From Candidatus Iainarchaeum sp. (GTDB lineage Archaea; Iainarchaeota; Iainarchaeia; JAFGOX01): a stretch of DNA of 35,191 nt. Of the stretch, positions 1,138 through 21,445 are shown piece after piece (within the stretch, counting starts at the first letter, position 1; every line of letters begins with the position of its first letter). A program made the position numbers and the translations under genes. The notes under the pieces were generated by a model. It searched no databases and had not been told where the DNA came from. It saw only the letters and a program-made list of their open reading frames with translations. Location of the stretch: the NCBI GenBank assembly GCA_016926295.1, contig JAFGOX010000041.1, positions 1-35,191 of the forward strand, in the 5' to 3' direction.

Positions 1138-1224
1138 TATAAAGGACTTTTGACTGTACACATTTTAAAGGCTATTGGGTAAAATATACTGTAAATAGCG
1201 AAAGATTTAGTGAGAGGTGAGTAT

Positions 1225-1503
1225 ATGACAACAAAAACCCATGGGTATAGGTGCAAAACAAGACGCAAATTAAAGAAAAGAGGCCTAACTCACGTAACAG
1301 ACTTCATGAAGGAATTTAATGTTGGTGACAAAGTACTGATCAAGATAGATTCATCAGTGCAGACAGGACACCCGCACCCGAGATTCAACAACAGAACCGG
1401 ATTGGTTAAGGGAATGCAGGGAAACTCATACCTGGTTGAAATTATGGACATCAACAAGAAGAAAACCATGATAGTAAGTCCCATTCATCTAAAGCCACAA
1501 TAA
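1225..1503 (+). CDS. rpl21e: 50S ribosomal protein L21e
   Basis: THGYRCKTRRKLKKRGL...GDKVLIKIDSSVQTGHPHPRFNNRTGLV typical of L21e. ATG at 1225 behind GAGGTGA is preferred over the GTG at 1210. Confidence 0.95.
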   Translation: MTTKTHGYRCKTRRKLKKRGLTHVTDFMKEFNVGDKVLIKIDSSVQTGHPHPRFNNRTGLVKGMQGNSYLVEIMDINKKKTMIVSPIHLKPQ

Positions 1504-1516
1504 TTGGAGGATTATA

Positions 1517-1888
1517 ATGATTGGCAAGAAAATACTGGACAAGAAATATGTTTCATTACCCGCAGTAATGAAAATGCTAAATGAAAGACTGGGCGAAAAC
1601 GAGCCGAGCTACGAACAGGAGGCTACTTTAAAATATGTGGACAAATTCGCAAAAATAAGCTCCGAAGCAGCTGAAAAAATGGCAAAAGAGCTCATTGACC
1701 TAGGGTTCCTTGATGACAAAGAGGTTGTCAAGGTAATCGACATAATGCCACAGGACTATGATGACATAAATGCCATAGTTCAGAGAAGAACCGGCGTTTT
1801 AGAGACTAGTGACGCACAGAAAATCATAGACATTGTGAAGAAATACGAGAAAGAGAAGCCCAAAAAGAAAGAAACCAAATCCAAATAA
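1517..1888 (+). CDS. rpoF: DNA-directed RNA polymerase subunit F (Rpb4 homolog)
   Basis: Rpb4/RpoF-like sequence and conserved position between L21e and DUF655. Confidence 0.88.
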   Translation: MIGKKILDKKYVSLPAVMKMLNERLGENEPSYEQEATLKYVDKFAKISSEAAEKMAKELIDLGFLDDKEVVKVIDIMPQDYDDINAIVQRRTGVLETSDAQKIIDIVKKYEKEKPKKKETKSK

Positions 1889-1898
1889 GTGATATATA

Positions 1899-2456
1899 AT
1901 GAAGGAAGAAAATGCATTGGTACTGGACTATCTGCCAGAGGGCAGGTACACTGATTACAAGCGTAATCCCATAGTGCAGGGTCTGGGCACCAGTCGTTTC
2001 ACCCTTCTTGAACTAATCCCAAAAGCAGGAACCAGCTTCGTTAACTTGGAGCAGGTATTTGTCGGAAAGGGAGACAGGGAAAAGATAACTCTTGTGAAAA
2101 GGGTGCTTAAGCCTAGCGAACTTACAAATGAGGCAAAGGCAAATCTTGAACCAGCAGTAGAGAAAATAGTTGATTCAGATATATCCCGATTCCTTAACTT
2201 CTACAACAAGGCCGGTTCACTGAGCGTCAGGCTTCACCAACTAGAACTGCTTCCGTCAATAGGAAAGAAACACGTCCAGAGCATAGTCAAGGAAAGGGAA
2301 AAGAAACCGTTTGAAAGCTTCAAGGAAATATCAGAAAGGATATCCTTATTGCCGAATCCAAAAAGAATAATTATACAAAGAATAATCTCTGAAATAAACG
2401 GAGAGGAAAAATATTATCTTTTTGCCAGACCAATGACCCCGCAAAAGAGGGTTTAG
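1899..2456 (+). CDS. DUF655 family protein (HhH-containing, probable RNA-binding)
   Basis: VLDYLPEGR...RNPIVQGLGTSRFTLLEL and HhH-like LPSIGKKHVQSIVKEREKKPFESF; conserved neighbourhood. Confidence 0.85.
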   Translation: MKEENALVLDYLPEGRYTDYKRNPIVQGLGTSRFTLLELIPKAGTSFVNLEQVFVGKGDREKITLVKRVLKPSELTNEAKANLEPAVEKIVDSDISRFLNFYNKAGSLSVRLHQLELLPSIGKKHVQSIVKEREKKPFESFKEISERISLLPNPKRIIIQRIISEINGEEKYYLFARPMTPQKRV

Positions 2457-2457
2457 T

Positions 2458-2682
2458 CTATTTGCTAAACCAACCCTTTTTCTTTGGTTTCTGCGGCGTT
2501 GAAGTCTCAGCATTCATGAAATCCATTTCAGATTCTATCATGTCCATTCTGTCGACTAACTCTTTAACCACATCAGTAAGCCTGTCAATCTGGCTTGCTG
2601 TCATTTTGTCCTTTACTTTTCCAGACTCCAGAGCATTTTTCACTGTGGTAAGTTTTGATTTGAGTTGTTTATAATTTGTCAT
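2458..2682 (-). CDS. Small predicted coiled-coil protein with basic C-terminus
   Basis: 74-aa ORF with ATG; divergent from 2746 gene and separated by TATA-like AT-rich DNA. Confidence 0.55.
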   Translation of the reverse strand: MTNYKQLKSKLTTVKNALESGKVKDKMTASQIDRLTDVVKELVDRMDMIESEMDFMNAETSTPQKPKKKGWFSK

Positions 2683-2745
2683 GGGAAAATCACCTCGTTA
2701 TTATAAATACACATTATTTATAAACCATCACTTTGAGATTTCATT

Positions 2746-3507
2746 ATGGACTTATTATCTGAGCTTTACAAACTGATGATTAAATATCATTTCAAACAGG
2801 GAAAAAGCGAAAAAAGATTTATCCTGATTAATTCTGAAATTCTGAAATCAGTTGCAAAGGACCTGAATGCAAAGAAAGATGAAACTGTTTTTGTCAGATA
2901 TGCAAATGCCGGATTCGCAATAAGAGAGTTAAAATCCAAAATAATTGTTGCAGATGCAGAGCCGTATATAAAAGTTCTCAAGGGCGAACTTAAAAATATA
3001 AAAATTGTAAACCTGTCAGAGAAAGTAAAGGCAGAAAAGCTTCTTGTTTTCCCGCCAATAAACAAAGCAAAGGAAGAAACTGAAATGGCCGCAGTGAGCA
3101 AGGCAACAGCAATACTTCTTTTACCATTAGAGCTTGACCTTGCAATATCCGCATATCCGGGAGAGTATGATTACAGTGCAACCAGCGTGATAATCCAAAT
3201 CCTGTCTGAAATAAAGGAAAAGAAAATTGTTTTGCCCGCGGAATTCTATCCAAGAGCAGAAAGCAAGATGTACCTGATAAAACTAAAACCGAAAAAAAGC
3301 AGCATAAAGGACGCAGATCATTTCAAGAAATTCATTTCCGGACTGTTCAAGTACAAAAACAGGACAATACAGAAGGCGCTAAAACTCGCAAACAAAGAAA
3401 ACAATTGGAAGCTCTCTGATGAAAAAATAGAAAGTGTAAGCTTAGATGAAAAGGTTTTCCTGATAACTCCGAAAGAATTTGAAAAAATATACTGCGAACT
3501 TTTCTAA
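2746..3507 (+). CDS. KsgA/Dim1-like protein (rRNA adenine dimethyltransferase fold) with degenerate SAM and catalytic motifs
   Basis: C-terminal half aligns by eye with KsgA (PGEYDYSATSVIIQ, PAEFYPRAESKMYLIKLKP, FKKFISGLFKYKNRTIQKALK); position after L21e-RpoF-DUF655 is the usual ksgA position; motif I and NLPY absent. Confidence 0.75.
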   Translation: MDLLSELYKLMIKYHFKQGKSEKRFILINSEILKSVAKDLNAKKDETVFVRYANAGFAIRELKSKIIVADAEPYIKVLKGELKNIKIVNLSEKVKAEKLLVFPPINKAKEETEMAAVSKATAILLLPLELDLAISAYPGEYDYSATSVIIQILSEIKEKKIVLPAEFYPRAESKMYLIKLKPKKSSIKDADHFKKFISGLFKYKNRTIQKALKLANKENNWKLSDEKIESVSLDEKVFLITPKEFEKIYCELF

Positions 3508-5063
3508 ACCTTCATCGGCGTGATTTCAAAGTCCCTGCCGGTGTATTCCTCGATTATCATCTTTTCTATTTCTACCGGATTGTTTGCCTTTGCAAAATTC
3601 TGCGCGTCAAAAAGCTTTGCCTCATTCTCGGCAAATATCTCAAAAAGAATCTGGCCCTTCTTGACCCGCGAACCGTTCATAACATACAACTGAATTCCCG
3701 CCCCTTTTGTTATCGGCGAGCCTGCAATTCGCGCAATTTTGTTCACAGTTCTGTTGTTGATTATCGCCACAGTTCCGTTCTTTTCTGAGCGGAATTCATA
3801 TCTTTGCTTTCCGACAGGTATGTCTTCTGACTTTATATCAGGATTACCGCCCTGCGCCTTGATTATTCTCCTGAACTGAGTCAATGCCTTCTTGTTCTCG
3901 ATTGTCTTTTTCGCAATCTCATATCCTTCGCCCTTGCTGCAATGCCCGGCCATCTCCAGAAGTTTTCCGGCAAGCAGACAGGACTTGTCTGCCAAATCCT
4001 CAAATCTCTTTCCTTCAAGAATTTCCAGAACGTATTTTGACTCAAGCGCCGGCCCTGCCACTCTCCCGACAGGCTGGTCGCCGTCAGTTATCAAAACATT
4101 TACAATTATCCCGACTTTGGCGCCGACTTCCACAAATTTCCTCGCAAGCTCTTTCGCCTCATCCATATTCTTGACTTTGACATGCGGCCCCATAGGAATA
4201 TCTATGACTGCATAAGTCGCTCCAACCGCCAGTTTCTTTGCAAGAACAGATGAAACAAGCTGGCCCTGGGGGTCAAGGGAAAGCGGATGCTCTACTTTTA
4301 TGATCTTGTCATCAGCTGGCGCAAGATTTACTGAGCCGCCCCATATAAGCGCGCCACCGGTTTCGTCAACTATTCTTTTTATCTCGGCAATATTATGCTC
4401 AACCGGCATCAAAACCTCCAACGTGTCTGCAGTGCCGGCTGCTGACGTTATCGCCCTGCTACTAGTCTTTGGCATTATGTAACCCAAAGAAGTCACAATA
4501 GAAACAACAAGGGGAGATGTTCTGTTTCCGGCCACTCCGCCGATCGAATGCTTGTCTAAAATCTTCCTGTGCCCTAATCCAAGACTCTCCCCGCTTTCGA
4601 CCATGTGCTTTACCATTGACACAATCTCATCATCTGTGAAACCGTGATTGTAAACCCCTGCAACAAAATAGGTTATCTCGACCTCGCTCAGATTATTAGT
4701 GCTGATATCATAAATTATCTGCCCTATCTCTTCATCGCTTAGTGTCTCTCCGACCAGTTTCCTTTTTATCGCATCAATGGATTTCGGCTGTTCGGCAACA
4801 GTAATAAAAAGTTTGTCCCCTGTCTTCGAATTAAGCCTTTTCCCAACACTTCCAAATAAGCCTATCTGCTTGGGCTTGACAATTGTCTCTGTTGTGTTGA
4901 CTATTGCGGTCATCACTTTCTGGTTGGATGGATTTTTTATGCGCACACGCGACAAAGTAGGAGCATCAAGCTTTTTTGATGTAATTTCATTAAGGAGAAT
5001 TATTGGCTTGTCCGCATCCATGTCAAGTACCTTTGCTAACAAAGGCAGCTCATAGGTGTTCAT
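3504..5063 (-). CDS. deoA: AMP phosphorylase (archaeal thymidine phosphorylase-like family)
   Basis: DKHSIGGVAGNRTSPLVVSIV...PKTSSRAITSAAGTADTLEVL; paired with R15P isomerase gene. Confidence 0.92.
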   Translation of the reverse strand: MNTYELPLLAKVLDMDADKPIILLNEITSKKLDAPTLSRVRIKNPSNQKVMTAIVNTTETIVKPKQIGLFGSVGKRLNSKTGDKLFITVAEQPKSIDAIKRKLVGETLSDEEIGQIIYDISTNNLSEVEITYFVAGVYNHGFTDDEIVSMVKHMVESGESLGLGHRKILDKHSIGGVAGNRTSPLVVSIVTSLGYIMPKTSSRAITSAAGTADTLEVLMPVEHNIAEIKRIVDETGGALIWGGSVNLAPADDKIIKVEHPLSLDPQGQLVSSVLAKKLAVGATYAVIDIPMGPHVKVKNMDEAKELARKFVEVGAKVGIIVNVLITDGDQPVGRVAGPALESKYVLEILEGKRFEDLADKSCLLAGKLLEMAGHCSKGEGYEIAKKTIENKKALTQFRRIIKAQGGNPDIKSEDIPVGKQRYEFRSEKNGTVAIINNRTVNKIARIAGSPITKGAGIQLYVMNGSRVKKGQILFEIFAENEAKLFDAQNFAKANNPVEIEKMIIEEYTGRDFEITPMKV

Positions 5064-16099: not shown

Positions 16100-19000
16100 T
16101 TATTCTTCTATTTTAATCGTTTCATCTGTAATCGGCTTCTGAACATCCTTGCCTGAAAGCTTTAATCCGACTACAGAAGAGCCATCTGCACCCCTGGCCA
16201 CACCAATTACCTGGTCCACAGCCCTGATTACTATGTCATTGTGGCTGATAATCACAAACTGTGAAATGTTTGCATAGTTTTTCAGCAGACCGCCAAGTTT
16301 GTTTGCATTAACTGCATCTAAAGCCGCATCGGCCTCATCCAAAATATAAAACGGCGCAGGTTTGTGCTGCTGTATTGCAAACAGGAAAGCCAAGGAAGTG
16401 AGTGTTTTCTCACCGCCACTCAACGCGTCTATATTCCTGAGCATTGCCCTGCCTTTTGGAGCCGCCTCAATAAGCAGACCTGAATTGAACAGGTCTTCCT
16501 CATTGTCAATCTTAAGCGTTCCTTTGCCTTCAGTAAGCTGCGGATAAACAGTCTCAAAGTTCACTCTGATTGAATCGAATGTTTCTCTAAAGGCTTTTTC
16601 CCTCTTAGAATCAATCTTTGATATCATATCGAGAACTACTTCTCTCTCGCGTCTCAAAATGTCAATCTTTTCCTCAATCTCATTAATCTTCTGAAGATAC
16701 TCATCGTAAAGAGTAAGGGCGCGCATATTGACTGCGCCAAGAGCTTCGATTTTTGCTTCAAGCTCCGGAAGCTGCCTCATTAGGTCACTAACCGAATCCT
16801 TGAGCGGCTCAACGCCAACATATTGCTTGAATTCCTCTTTCAAATCTGCCAGCTTTGTCTCGACTTTTGCCATGTTGATTCTGGCCTCATTAACAGACGA
16901 TTCTATTCCGCTTATTCGGCCAAGATGCTTGCCTTTTGACATTCCCAGCTCTTCAAGCTTCTTGTCAACCGCATCTTTTCTTTCCAATAAAGTTTCAAGG
17001 CTCTTTGAAGTCTTCCTTAATTCAATCTCTTTCTTTTCAAGCTCTTTTGAAAGGATTGTGATACTGTTATTCGAAACCTTTATTTCATTGTCAAATGAAT
17101 CTGTTTCTTTTGAAATATTTTCAATCTGCGCAACAGTTTCTTTCTTTCTGATTTCAAGACCCTGCTCAATTTCAGTCTTAAGTCTCTGAACACCTACAGT
17201 CTGGGTTGACATCGACTCTTTCAATGCATCTATCTGCTTGCTCAAGTCGTCTATCTCCAGTCTGCTTTTGCTTGCACGAGATTTTGCAACCAGGGTTTCT
17301 ATCTCTTTCTTCTCAGTTTCCAGTTGGCTTATCTTTGTCAATAGTTTCTCTGATTCTTTCTTCTTAAGCTTAACATGTGATTCAATATCCTTAACAGAAA
17401 CAAGCAATCCCTTCTGCGTATCCCCTAGTTGCTCAGAAAGTATGTTTCTTTCTTTCTCAACTTCCTTGATTTTTCCCTCAATCTCTGCGCGCTTTTCCCT
17501 TAGCTCGTTTGACTCTATTCTCACGCGCTCGATATCGCTTAAGGCATTGCGCTTCATTGCCTCGACATCCATAACCTGCTGTTCAAGCTCCTTGACCCTT
17601 TTAACATCCTTAATCGTAAGCGTCTTCTTGTTCCTTGAACCACCAAGCATTACTCCGGAGGATTCTGATATATCGCCATCTTCGGTAACCATTCTTATTT
17701 TTCCGACGCCAACCTTTCTCGCACTCTCAATTTTGTCAATAACAAGTGTGTCTCCAAAAATATACTCAAATGCAGGCCTGAAAGATTCTCTGAAATCAAC
17801 CAGATTTATGGCAAAGTCAATTGCACCGGCATTCTTTGCAAGCGGTTTCACTTCTGCAGTAATGGCCCGCCCTCTGATTTTATTGAGCGGGATAAAGGCA
17901 ACCCTTCCAAGATTCTTCTTCTTTAGATAATTAATACAATCTGTTGCGGTCTTATCGTCATCCACCACAACATAAAACATCTTCGAGCCGATTGCAGTCT
18001 CGATTGCAACAGCATTATTATCAGAGTACTTGCACAAATCAGCGACAGTGCCGTATATTCCTGAAATTTCACTTTTCTTTTTTGCCTCAATAAGGGCGTC
18101 AACTCCGGGTGGCTGCATAAGTCCTGCTGATTTCAAGGTTGAAAGCGTTGTTTTAAGCGAAACATAATCCTCTCTTATTGCCTTAAGCTCGTTCTCAACT
18201 GTTTCAAATTTCTTGTTTACTCTTTTCTCTTCCTCAAAATATGATGATATGCTTCTGTTAACGGAGTCAAGTTCGTTCTTGTAGGATGCAAGCTCTTCTT
18301 CAATTGCATCATATCTTGACTGGGCTTTTTTGATTGCCTCTTCTGCGCCCTGAGACTGCTCCTTCTTTATTTCAATTTCCCTTGTGTATGCGTCAATCGC
18401 GGCTTTTAATAAATAGAACTGCTCTTTCAGTCCGTCAATCTCTATTGACTTCTTCCTGAGCTGTGACTCGTGTTCGTAAGCGGACTCGTCCTCTTGCTTG
18501 TATTTCTCAAGTAATTCAGTCTGCTTGTCTCGGAGGTCCTTTAATTTCTTAAGTTCTGGGGCATTCTTCTCTTCCAGTGCTTTCAGCTCATTCTCCTTCT
18601 GGGTAATTTCAGATTCAATATTTGACTGCCTTTCGCGCAACTCCTGAATCGCCTGTGTATTTTTGCTAATCTGCTCTTTTCTTGACTTTGTCTTTTCCTT
18701 GTTAAGCTCAATATCGGTTCTTAATTTTTCCATGTCCTGCGCAAGCTTTGTCTGACCTGCCCCACCAGATTCAAGGATTTCCTTGTTCAGGTCCTTGAGT
18801 TTTTTGTCCCATGTCGATATCTCCGCATCAAGTTCCTCAATCTTTTCCTTTGCCTCTTTTATTTTTGTATCGCTGCTCTCAAGCAGTTTCCTGTTGTGCT
18901 CAAAGTCTTTTTCATATCTCTGTATTTCAGAGCCAAGGACTGTTGATTTTATTCTTTTTACCTTTGTATTGAGTTCCTGGAATCTTTCAGCATCCTCTTT

Positions 19001-21445
19001 GTCCTTCTTCAATGCGTCAAGCATCTCCTGCCTTTCGCCCTTAATAATATGCCATTCCTTGATCTTGTCTTCGACCTTGTCCAGTTGTCTCAGGGACTCC
19101 ACTTTCTTCTCTTCGTACTCTGCAATCCCTGCAACCTCGTCAATCACGGTTCTTCTCATTCTAGGGGTCATTTCAATAACCCTTTCAATATCTCCCTGCA
19201 AAACAACGTTATGGCCGGAAGTACTGATATTAAGACTCATAAGCAACGCATGGATTGCGCTCCTTGTGGTCCTTTTCCCGTCAATTCTATAAACCGATTT
19301 GCCCTGTTTGTCAATTGTTCTCGTGACAACATAATCCTTTTCCCCGTCCTTTAGGACAACACTAACGCGGGCCTTGCCATCAACTGACTTGTGAAAAACT
19401 AGGTCACTTAATCTGTCTGCACGAATTGTCTTAAGACTGGAAATTCCAAAAACAAACATCAGAGCGTCAATTACATTGGAATTATGAACAATACAATTTT
19501 CTGCAACAAAATTATGATAAGGAATTACGGTTAAATCATAAACATATTTGTCTTTTGGGACAATCCTTCTTATATCTACTATTTCTTCCCAATAAACCTC
19601 TGAATTGGCCAATCTGCGTAACAACGTTATTTTTTCTCTTACTAGGACACTATTACTTTTCATAAGTTGTGAGAATGCTAATTTAATTTTAGATAAGGTT
19701 TGTCTGTTTGGTACTCTGGCGCCACGTATAAAATCACTAATATTATTCGCAACACCTGCATATTGTGCAAATCCTTTTTGACTTATTCTAAACGTGTGTA
19801 AAAATAAATCCAACCCCAAAAAAAGCTCATTTTCATTAACTTTTTCTATTTCATTTAATTTACTCTCAAAAATATCTGCAACCTCAATTAATCCTGCCCT
19901 ACTTGGTGCACAAGATCCTTCTAAATAAGCCTTAAGCTTTGGATGCCCAAAACCACTGAGTTCTTTTGAATTAACTCTTAATATAGAAAACAAATCACGA
20001 ATAATTGGCTGAACACCCGGTATAACATCAAAATTTGGATTTGTTTTTTTATTTTGGAAAGATTCTAAAACCTGCGTCAAAGTTTCTTTCTTTTTACCAA
20101 CAAGATAAATGTTTTCATTAAACAAACCTAAATTTCCCTTACCATAAATAGATAATCTATAATGGGTTCTACGAACTTTGTTCTTAGTATTAGCTGCACA
20201 TTTCTCAGTCTTACTAATTGTTGAAGAAATTCCTAACCTAAGCAGAAGCGTTTGCATAGCATATATTATATCTTTGCTGGCTGAAGTAAGTTCAAGATGA
20301 TTTTTAGAAACGTGGCCGTCACCAGAAAAATAACTTCCAATTAAGTGGCCTATTTCCTCATTTGTTAACTCAAACACAAAAGGACTAAATTTCTTAGTTG
20401 CTGCATGTGCACCTTGTTTTAAACCAAAAAGGTTTTCAAGATAAACGCCTGCAGCATGAGAAAAAATCATTGAATCATAGCAATTTGGCTTATACTTCTT
20501 TGTATATGCCATAGCCCCAAACAGTTTCTTTGATAGTTTTTCAAAATCTGCTATTATTTTCTTATCTTCATTAATAATTCTAATTTGATTTGAATTCTGG
20601 AACCCGCCTTCTGCGAATAAGTAACCCGCATACCTTGCCAAATCTGCACTAATTTTTGGAACTGCTACTGTTTTGTTTTGTGATTTTGATTTAATTTCTG
20701 TAACAAAGCTAACTATTTCATTTTCTCTACCAATTGCACATAATATTTTTACAAGCCAATAAATATTAACTGCTTGTTTATCCCTTATTCCTTTAATTAC
20801 ATTTTTTGGGATTCCAACTTTAACTGACACATTTACAACTGAACCATAAGCCTTCATTAAATCTGAAATTAAAGAATATACCTTATCTGAATAAGGAACA
20901 TAAATATTATCTTCAAGCCCAAATAAATTAAGTAATAAATTATCACGCCTAAGATTAACTTCTAATTTTCGCGGAGTTGCGACTTTAGAACCAACACTAA
21001 GTTCTTCTGCCTTAGCTGAAGTTATCTTTCCATCTTTTAGAATAATTAAGGGGTGATAAGGTGTTGTTGTAATTTCTTTTCCCGAGCGTAACTTTATATT
21101 TAATAAATTTTCAGGTGCAGTACGTTTTATGAATGCCGTAACTGGAACTTGCTCAATTTTTGCAGTATTTGGATTTAATGAAAGAATTTCTATGCCTTCG
21201 GGGTTACCCAAAGTAAAAATCCCATCATCCATATTTTCTGTTTCTGCGGTCTTAAGGAGTGCAGTATCTACAATATCTTTAATAGTTCTAACCTTTCCAT
21301 TCGCTAATTGAATCTTAGAATCTCCAACTAAACACTTGCCGGAGCCGTTTGCCCCCACAACCGCGGTCAACCCATTAGCAACGGGTATGTCTGCCTTCTT
21401 GAAAGACTTGAAATTTCTAAGTTTAAGCGCATGTATCTTAACCAT
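16100..21445 (-). CDS. smc: Chromosome segregation protein SMC precursor with in-frame intein
   Basis: GANGSGK...S Walker A split by intein; C-terminal LSGGEKTLTSLAFLFAIQ and FYILDEADAALD; hinge and long coiled coils. Confidence 0.96.
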   Translation of the reverse strand: MVKIHALKLRNFKSFKKADIPVANGLTAVVGANGSGKCLVGDSKIQLANGKVRTIKDIVDTALLKTAETENMDDGIFTLGNPEGIEILSLNPNTAKIEQVPVTAFIKRTAPENLLNIKLRSGKEITTTPYHPLIILKDGKITSAKAEELSVGSKVATPRKLEVNLRRDNLLLNLFGLEDNIYVPYSDKVYSLISDLMKAYGSVVNVSVKVGIPKNVIKGIRDKQAVNIYWLVKILCAIGRENEIVSFVTEIKSKSQNKTVAVPKISADLARYAGYLFAEGGFQNSNQIRIINEDKKIIADFEKLSKKLFGAMAYTKKYKPNCYDSMIFSHAAGVYLENLFGLKQGAHAATKKFSPFVFELTNEEIGHLIGSYFSGDGHVSKNHLELTSASKDIIYAMQTLLLRLGISSTISKTEKCAANTKNKVRRTHYRLSIYGKGNLGLFNENIYLVGKKKETLTQVLESFQNKKTNPNFDVIPGVQPIIRDLFSILRVNSKELSGFGHPKLKAYLEGSCAPSRAGLIEVADIFESKLNEIEKVNENELFLGLDLFLHTFRISQKGFAQYAGVANNISDFIRGARVPNRQTLSKIKLAFSQLMKSNSVLVREKITLLRRLANSEVYWEEIVDIRRIVPKDKYVYDLTVIPYHNFVAENCIVHNSNVIDALMFVFGISSLKTIRADRLSDLVFHKSVDGKARVSVVLKDGEKDYVVTRTIDKQGKSVYRIDGKRTTRSAIHALLMSLNISTSGHNVVLQGDIERVIEMTPRMRRTVIDEVAGIAEYEEKKVESLRQLDKVEDKIKEWHIIKGERQEMLDALKKDKEDAERFQELNTKVKRIKSTVLGSEIQRYEKDFEHNRKLLESSDTKIKEAKEKIEELDAEISTWDKKLKDLNKEILESGGAGQTKLAQDMEKLRTDIELNKEKTKSRKEQISKNTQAIQELRERQSNIESEITQKENELKALEEKNAPELKKLKDLRDKQTELLEKYKQEDESAYEHESQLRKKSIEIDGLKEQFYLLKAAIDAYTREIEIKKEQSQGAEEAIKKAQSRYDAIEEELASYKNELDSVNRSISSYFEEEKRVNKKFETVENELKAIREDYVSLKTTLSTLKSAGLMQPPGVDALIEAKKKSEISGIYGTVADLCKYSDNNAVAIETAIGSKMFYVVVDDDKTATDCINYLKKKNLGRVAFIPLNKIRGRAITAEVKPLAKNAGAIDFAINLVDFRESFRPAFEYIFGDTLVIDKIESARKVGVGKIRMVTEDGDISESSGVMLGGSRNKKTLTIKDVKRVKELEQQVMDVEAMKRNALSDIERVRIESNELREKRAEIEGKIKEVEKERNILSEQLGDTQKGLLVSVKDIESHVKLKKKESEKLLTKISQLETEKKEIETLVAKSRASKSRLEIDDLSKQIDALKESMSTQTVGVQRLKTEIEQGLEIRKKETVAQIENISKETDSFDNEIKVSNNSITILSKELEKKEIELRKTSKSLETLLERKDAVDKKLEELGMSKGKHLGRISGIESSVNEARINMAKVETKLADLKEEFKQYVGVEPLKDSVSDLMRQLPELEAKIEALGAVNMRALTLYDEYLQKINEIEEKIDILRREREVVLDMISKIDSKREKAFRETFDSIRVNFETVYPQLTEGKGTLKIDNEEDLFNSGLLIEAAPKGRAMLRNIDALSGGEKTLTSLAFLFAIQQHKPAPFYILDEADAALDAVNANKLGGLLKNYANISQFVIISHNDIVIRAVDQVIGVARGADGSSVVGLKLSGKDVQKPITDETIKIEE
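19481..21334 (-). mobile_element. SMC intein (618 aa) with LAGLIDADG homing endonuclease
   Basis: N-terminal splice block CLVGDSKIQLANG, block B TTPYHPLI, LAGLIDADG-type YAGYLFAEGGF and IGSYFSGDGHV, block F VYDLTVIPYHNFVAEN, C-terminal CIVHN followed by Ser. Confidence 0.95.

Follow-up and report, generated by a model that had tools for sequence, protein, structure and literature searches.

A degenerate KsgA/Dim1 ortholog, probably a pseudoenzyme, retained in the archaeal ksgA position of a Diapherotrites genome

KsgA/Dim1, a near-universal enzyme, adds two methyl groups to each of two adenines at the end of the small-subunit rRNA. The resulting pair, m6,2A1518/1519, is among the most conserved rRNA modifications, and the reason for the conservation of both the mark and the enzyme is unsettled. 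KsgA normally binds the immature 30S subunit at the platform, and in laboratory work the protein and the methylation are separable. To our knowledge, the natural departures from the standard enzyme were limited to its absence, in Nanoarchaeum equitans, and to repurposed mitochondrial copies, and a literature search returned no report of KsgA pseudoenzymes or of a degenerate but retained state. The locus described here, in which the gene at the ksgA position encodes a protein devoid of the usual SAM-binding and catalytic motifs, raises the question of what such a protein is and what it may be kept for.

The locus and the motifs of its product

The window, that is, the whole stretch of 35,191 nucleotides analysed, corresponds to positions 1-35191 of contig C2 in genome G000, a MAG of 592,378 bases in 52 contigs that is 79% complete. 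Its assignment to a phylum is based on the named matches of a GTDB scan (e.g. L092, L093, L094 and L095), which are labelled 'Candidatus Diapherotrites' and carry proteins that match those of relatives. The genes and sites of interest, in window coordinates, are the following:

1210-1503, forward strand: ribosomal protein L21e (PF01157, E 2.4e-24)
1517-1888, forward strand: RNA polymerase subunit F, Rpb4 (PF03874, E 5.6e-12; NCBIfam subunit F)
1899-2456, forward strand: DUF655 protein, conserved neighbour upstream of archaeal ksgA (PF04919, E 9.4e-61)
2746-3507, forward strand: degenerate KsgA/Dim1 ortholog of 253 aa, probable pseudoenzyme as judged from its sequence (PF00398, AlphaFold/Foldseek, cluster position)
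2887-2931, forward strand: site of SAM motif I (normally xLEIGxGxGxLT), residues 48-62, reading VFVRYANAGFAIREL (alignment)
3046-3066, forward strand: site of catalytic motif IV (normally N-[LI]-P-[YF]), residues 101-107, reading VFPPINK (alignment)
3244-3252, forward strand: motif VIII Phe/Pro, residues 167-169, FYP, retained (Phe and first Pro in 83 of 83 Diapherotrites orthologs)
3346-3363, forward strand: C-terminal basic motif F-x-x-[KR]-x-[KR], residues 201-206, FKYKNR, retained (alignment)
3504-5063, reverse strand: thymidine/AMP-phosphorylase family protein (PF00591, PF02885, PF07831)

The coordinates of the open reading frame at 2746-3507 and the motif readings made in the first-pass annotation were correct, as was its placement of the protein in the ksgA position: the order L21e-rpoF-DUF655-ksgA is that of the archaeal cluster, and DUF655 also adjoins ksgA in the relatives included in the neighbourhood comparison. 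The phosphorylase-family gene is convergent with ksgA, and its last four bases overlap the ksgA stop. On the opposite strand, between DUF655 and ksgA, lies a 74-aa coiled-coil-like ORF (2458-2682, reverse strand).

Pfam RrnaAD (PF00398) matches residues 118-230 of the window protein (E 2.7e-11, 43.5 bits against a cut-off of 24), placing it in the family, and also matches all 15 members of alignment A1 at E <= 0.01. By phmmer, the Dim1 proteins of M. jannaschii and P. horikoshii align over residues 6-226, the alignment to M. jannaschii Dim1 covering 15-226. The KsgA equivalog model TIGR00755 gives 52.5 bits, far under its cut-off of 171. The resemblance to KsgA, which had been assigned to the C-terminal two thirds, is indeed clear C-terminally, although it spans half of the protein, slightly under two thirds.

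At motif I, where E-x-G-x-G-x-G is canonical in 70 of 70 other archaea, the aligned window protein reads V-R-Y-A-N-A-G: the acid and the first two glycines are replaced by V, Y and N, and Gly3 alone is kept. The motif X Gln is absent, the motif II acid is Ala and the motif III acid falls in a gap, the surrounding region reading IVNLSE. Motif IV has become F-P-P-I, with Asn replaced by Phe, Leu by Pro and Tyr by Ile. The motif VIII Phe and the C-terminal basic motif are both in place; across the aligned orthologs, the motif VIII Phe and first Pro are kept whether the SAM pocket is kept or lost.

The AlphaFold model of the protein, computed with 65 aligned sequences, reaches a mean pLDDT of 96.8 and a pTM of 0.91, and shows a Rossmann methyltransferase-like domain together with the KsgA C-terminal domain. 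Foldseek against the PDB places P. horikoshii DIMT1 at the top (8x3w, E 1.6e-19, TM 0.84), and the further matches include M. jannaschii Dim1, bacterial KsgA, TFB1M and the structure of E. coli KsgA L114P (3tpz), so that the first-pass reading of the protein as a KsgA homolog is upheld by its predicted structure. A relative from family f23, whose N-terminal half is even more altered, is modelled with a pLDDT of 97.0 and also returns KsgA/Dim1. Because both models are confident and match KsgA/Dim1, the two proteins are predicted to be folded and KsgA-like rather than products of damaged genes. Trivial causes of the broken motifs were discarded: a frameshift, because the N-terminal half aligns unbroken to relatives and folds at a predicted pLDDT of about 97; a sequencing error, because the same state is found in unrelated genomes; and chance, because a gene with broken motifs is present in 16 further genomes. 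Sequence and model thus establish the descent and the fold, and show that motifs X, I, II, III and IV are lost while the Phe of motif VIII and the C-terminal basic motif remain.

A second active copy elsewhere in the genome, which the first-pass annotation had envisaged, did not turn up: profile searches of the host MAG found no second KsgA, the sole further PF00398 match being a weak one on contig C24 (profile positions 34-92, E 0.006). Since this genome is 79% complete, there is room for an unseen second enzyme.

Motif and gene losses among Diapherotrites

The comparison covered 92 Diapherotrites genomes (phylum and class coincide there), among which the host genome is the only member of its order, and 83 KsgA orthologs were collected; most or all of the genomes compared are MAGs or otherwise uncultivated. 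The catalytic Asn of motif IV is found in none of the 78 scorable orthologs, compared with 67 of 70 KsgAs from other archaeal genomes. Its position is occupied by L (38 orthologs), F (21), S (5), E (5), A (4), T (3) or I (2), and the next one is Pro in 64, so that the motif mostly reads x-P-P-Y. Almost all proteins in another set, drawn from named archaea and bacteria, have Asn, the exceptions carrying SIP[FY]. One protein, L021 (G017:C49), was omitted from the tally as possible contamination; it is a second, bacterial-looking KsgA with SNLPF that accompanies G017's own SIPPY copy, by contamination or horizontal transfer. This phylum-wide loss of Asn suggests ribosomes without m6,2A in its usual form, and it modifies the earlier proposal that activity was lost in the lineage of the window: Asn had already gone throughout the phylum, whereas the loss of the SAM pocket is a later step that did take place in the window gene. 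Relatives did not show the intact motifs that would have pointed to an assembly error.

In E. coli KsgA, the L114P change is said to impair the second methylation, and N113A reportedly weakens the enzyme. Mono-methylating adenine enzymes carry (N/D)PP(Y/F/W), and in m6,2A enzymes a small hydrophobic residue at the position after the catalytic one lets the monomethylated base rebind (PMC3814359). The x-P-P-Y of Diapherotrites likewise has a Pro after the catalytic position. The x-P-P-Y proteins that keep the pocket probably still use SAM, may be weak or mono-methylating, and are predicted not to dimethylate. Outside the phylum, three archaeal KsgAs, L281 (G107), L283 (G187) and L291 (G114), have N-P-P-[YF], with Asn kept and Leu replaced by Pro, and these natural variants would be useful for comparing mono- and dimethylation. 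A further protein from outside Diapherotrites, L296 (G128:C7), reads CLQPRHL at motif IV; it is likely, from its sequence, to be another dead KsgA, and its genome is rated 100% complete.

In the alignment, motifs X, I, II and III are kept in most Diapherotrites orthologs. The SAM pocket has been lost in four groups, namely f1 (the window), f3 (G003, G004), f4-g6 (G005-G008) and f23, a recurrence that answers the earlier suggestion to look for the same loss in relatives. In f23, seven genomes were aligned and G087, G088 and G090, the last two partial, were added by a profile search with A1; the pocket-lost gene is retained throughout this family (10/10). Among the 14 pocket-lost proteins scored, Gly1 and Gly2 of motif I are almost all gone, and all 14 keep the Phe and first Pro of motif VIII and, C-terminally, the Phe and both basic residues. 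When pocket loss is mapped on a 16S tree, four changes are required, three of them forced by well-supported branches: pocket-lost G004 is paired with G072, and G006/G008 with G009, both partners being pocket-kept. G009 retains motif I, which G005-G008 of the same family have lost. Pocket loss has thus been repeated in separate clades, as sequences and models jointly show. Values of dN/dS within f23 and f4-g6, the two multi-genome groups computed, lie between 0.07 and 0.43, which suggests purifying selection on the pocket-lost gene, the f23 values being rough because dS is saturated in most pairs.

In two genomes the gene itself is missing from the cluster, with the expected site assembled in both. 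In G066, L21e, an ORF in the Rpb4 position and DUF655 are directly followed by an AMP-phosphorylase-family gene, of the same family as the gene that follows ksgA in the window, which marks the site of the deletion. In G001, L21e, an ORF in the Rpb4 position and DUF655 are followed by a 124-aa ORF and a RIO1 kinase. Profile searches found no KsgA C-terminal match elsewhere in these MAGs (78% and 80% complete, respectively). G002, G043, G048 and G073 were not counted as losses because DUF655 is missing there too and the region may be unassembled. Outside Diapherotrites, no convincing full KsgA match was obtained in the near-complete small archaeal genomes G108, G117, G121, G124, G136, G148, G168, G176 and G188, several such genomes giving no matches or only generic methyltransferase-like ones, which suggests further losses of ksgA.

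The target of the enzyme is present in the host: h45 of its 16S rRNA reads GTCTGTAGG-GGAA-CCTGCAGAC, with one compensated base pair relative to relatives. The tetraloop to which the first-pass annotation had drawn attention is therefore intact, but it does not discriminate on methylation, because the loop is GGAA in 30 of 31 genomes, the other being UGAA in pocket-lost G006 (L196); drift in h45 was accordingly set aside as a sign of lost methylation. The host 16S gene (L003, G000:C1, about 1501-3740, reverse strand) is about 2240 bases long and carries an insert of roughly 750 bases with a LAGLIDADG_3 homing-endonuclease ORF (2209-2946, reverse strand; PF14528, E 4e-14), i.e. an rRNA intron. 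The 16S gene of G007 is similarly long.

Possible roles of a KsgA without its active site

Compared with KsgA/RsmA/Dim1 dimethyltransferases, the window protein has the same fold, archaeal-type neighbourhood, motif VIII Phe, C-terminal basic motif and h45 substrate, but differs in the absence of the SAM motifs and of N-[LI]-P-Y and in its low score against the ksgA equivalog. The explanation that we consider probable is that the protein is a pseudoenzyme of the KsgA family, retained to assist small-subunit assembly without methylating, and marks the far end of a withdrawal from m6,2A that spans the phylum. The protein would be an orthologous KsgA/Dim1 that no longer binds SAM or methylates adenine and that keeps, with the KsgA fold, the docking surface for the immature 30S platform (h44/h45/h24); such docking presumably persists, because the C-terminal basic motif and the fold are kept. 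It would transiently occupy the platform as a non-catalytic assembly or quality-control factor, A1518 and A1519 would lack dimethylation in the host organism, and release from the 30S would now be independent of methylation. A changed release mechanism would be needed because the catalytically dead KsgA E84A of H. volcanii remains on the 30S irrespective of SAM and is dominant negative (PMC7897474). Both the role in assembly and the lack of m6,2A are inferred from sequence and predicted structure. A loss of activity would be tolerable, since H. volcanii, S. acidocaldarius and P. furiosus can each do without ksgA in the laboratory (PMC7897474) and N. equitans lives without the mark.

Loss of motifs is not by itself proof of inactivity, since the RNA polymerase of N. 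equitans is active despite radical active-site substitutions (PMC8204694). The window protein might thus still methylate h45 with an unusual active site, either through a pocket that is degenerate in sequence yet functional or by producing m6A at a low rate. In most Diapherotrites orthologs Asn is missing but motifs X, I, II and III are present, as is the Tyr of motif IV, for which reason SAM use seems to be selected in them; their x-P-P-Y resembles the motif of mono-methylating adenine enzymes (PMC3814359), and a structure of E. coli KsgA L114P exists. The window protein, however, has none of the acids of motifs I, II and III, lacks two glycines of motif I and the Gln of motif X, and has neither Asn nor Tyr at motif IV, and we hold methylation by it to be very improbable.

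If catalysis is gone, the gene could be a functionless relic on its way out. In favour of this reading are the dispensability of archaeal ksgA in the laboratory (PMC7897474), the missing gene in G066 and G001 and the lack of strong KsgA matches in several near-complete genomes outside the phylum. Decay is nevertheless improbable in view of an ORF that is intact, without stop or frameshift, and has a high-confidence predicted fold, of dN/dS values that stay below 0.45 in both the f23 and the f4 set and of retention across the whole of f23. Selection for a different role, as when mitochondrial mtTFB/TFB2M became transcription factors, has precedent in the recruitment of the KsgA family to new functions in mitochondria (PMC2614427, PMC6028840), and the f23 proteins do share a new FAFPGxxFR segment at the former motif I site. 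Yet every pocket-lost lineage has kept FxP and the C-terminal basic positions, and the gene still sits in a ribosomal/RNA polymerase cluster, which speaks against a transcription factor of the mtTFB type; repurposing is unlikely.

Retention as an assembly factor would place the window protein near the end of a series that runs from the replacement of Asn, in the ancestor of the phylum, through the erosion of the SAM pocket, in four groups, to the disappearance of the gene from the cluster, in two genomes. The wider claim that Diapherotrites as a whole phylum abandoned the h45 m6,2A pair, by ancestral Asn replacement, repeated pocket decay and some gene loss, has in our judgement about an even chance of being right. 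The ancestral change, joined in most lineages by Leu to Pro, would have left an enzyme making at most m6A or only binding SAM; this would have relaxed the pocket, whose repeated decay would have left proteins acting in assembly alone, and some lineages would have lost the gene altogether.

Several known systems resemble parts of this picture. N. equitans, for which PMC7897474 and PMC8997704 cite a bypass of RsmA/Dim1 and the former describes life without the m6,2A mark, is, like the window organism as we read it, a DPANN archaeon without KsgA-dependent m6,2A, but the gene is absent there and a degenerate protein is retained here; G066 and G001 are nearer to its state. Mitochondrial mtTFB/Mtf1 also belongs to the KsgA family and has its SAM and adenosine pocket blocked. 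Mtf1, however, keeps GxG and the SAM-contacting residues and is a transcription factor (PMC2614427), whereas the window protein has lost the motif and is encoded, in an archaeon, among ribosomal genes. The closest laboratory analogues are folded, inactive KsgAs, namely H. volcanii E84A and human DIMT1 E85A or NLPY to AAAA, the last of which is folded, stable and inactive (PMC8463865). These are engineered, however, and the archaeal mutant is trapped on the 30S, from which the natural version would have to be released differently.

One phylum thus holds pocket-intact orthologs without Asn, orthologs without a SAM pocket and genomes without the gene, which makes the role of KsgA without methylation testable by comparison. 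If the wider claim about the phylum is right, Diapherotrites would amount to a natural series in which what KsgA does structurally is separated from what it does chemically. Annotation of these genes as active RsmA is likely to be wrong.

Elsewhere in the window, positions 16100-21445 (reverse strand) encode a 1781-aa SMC-like ATPase with an apparent intein at Walker A (GSGK|CLVGD ... VHN|SN), read by eye.
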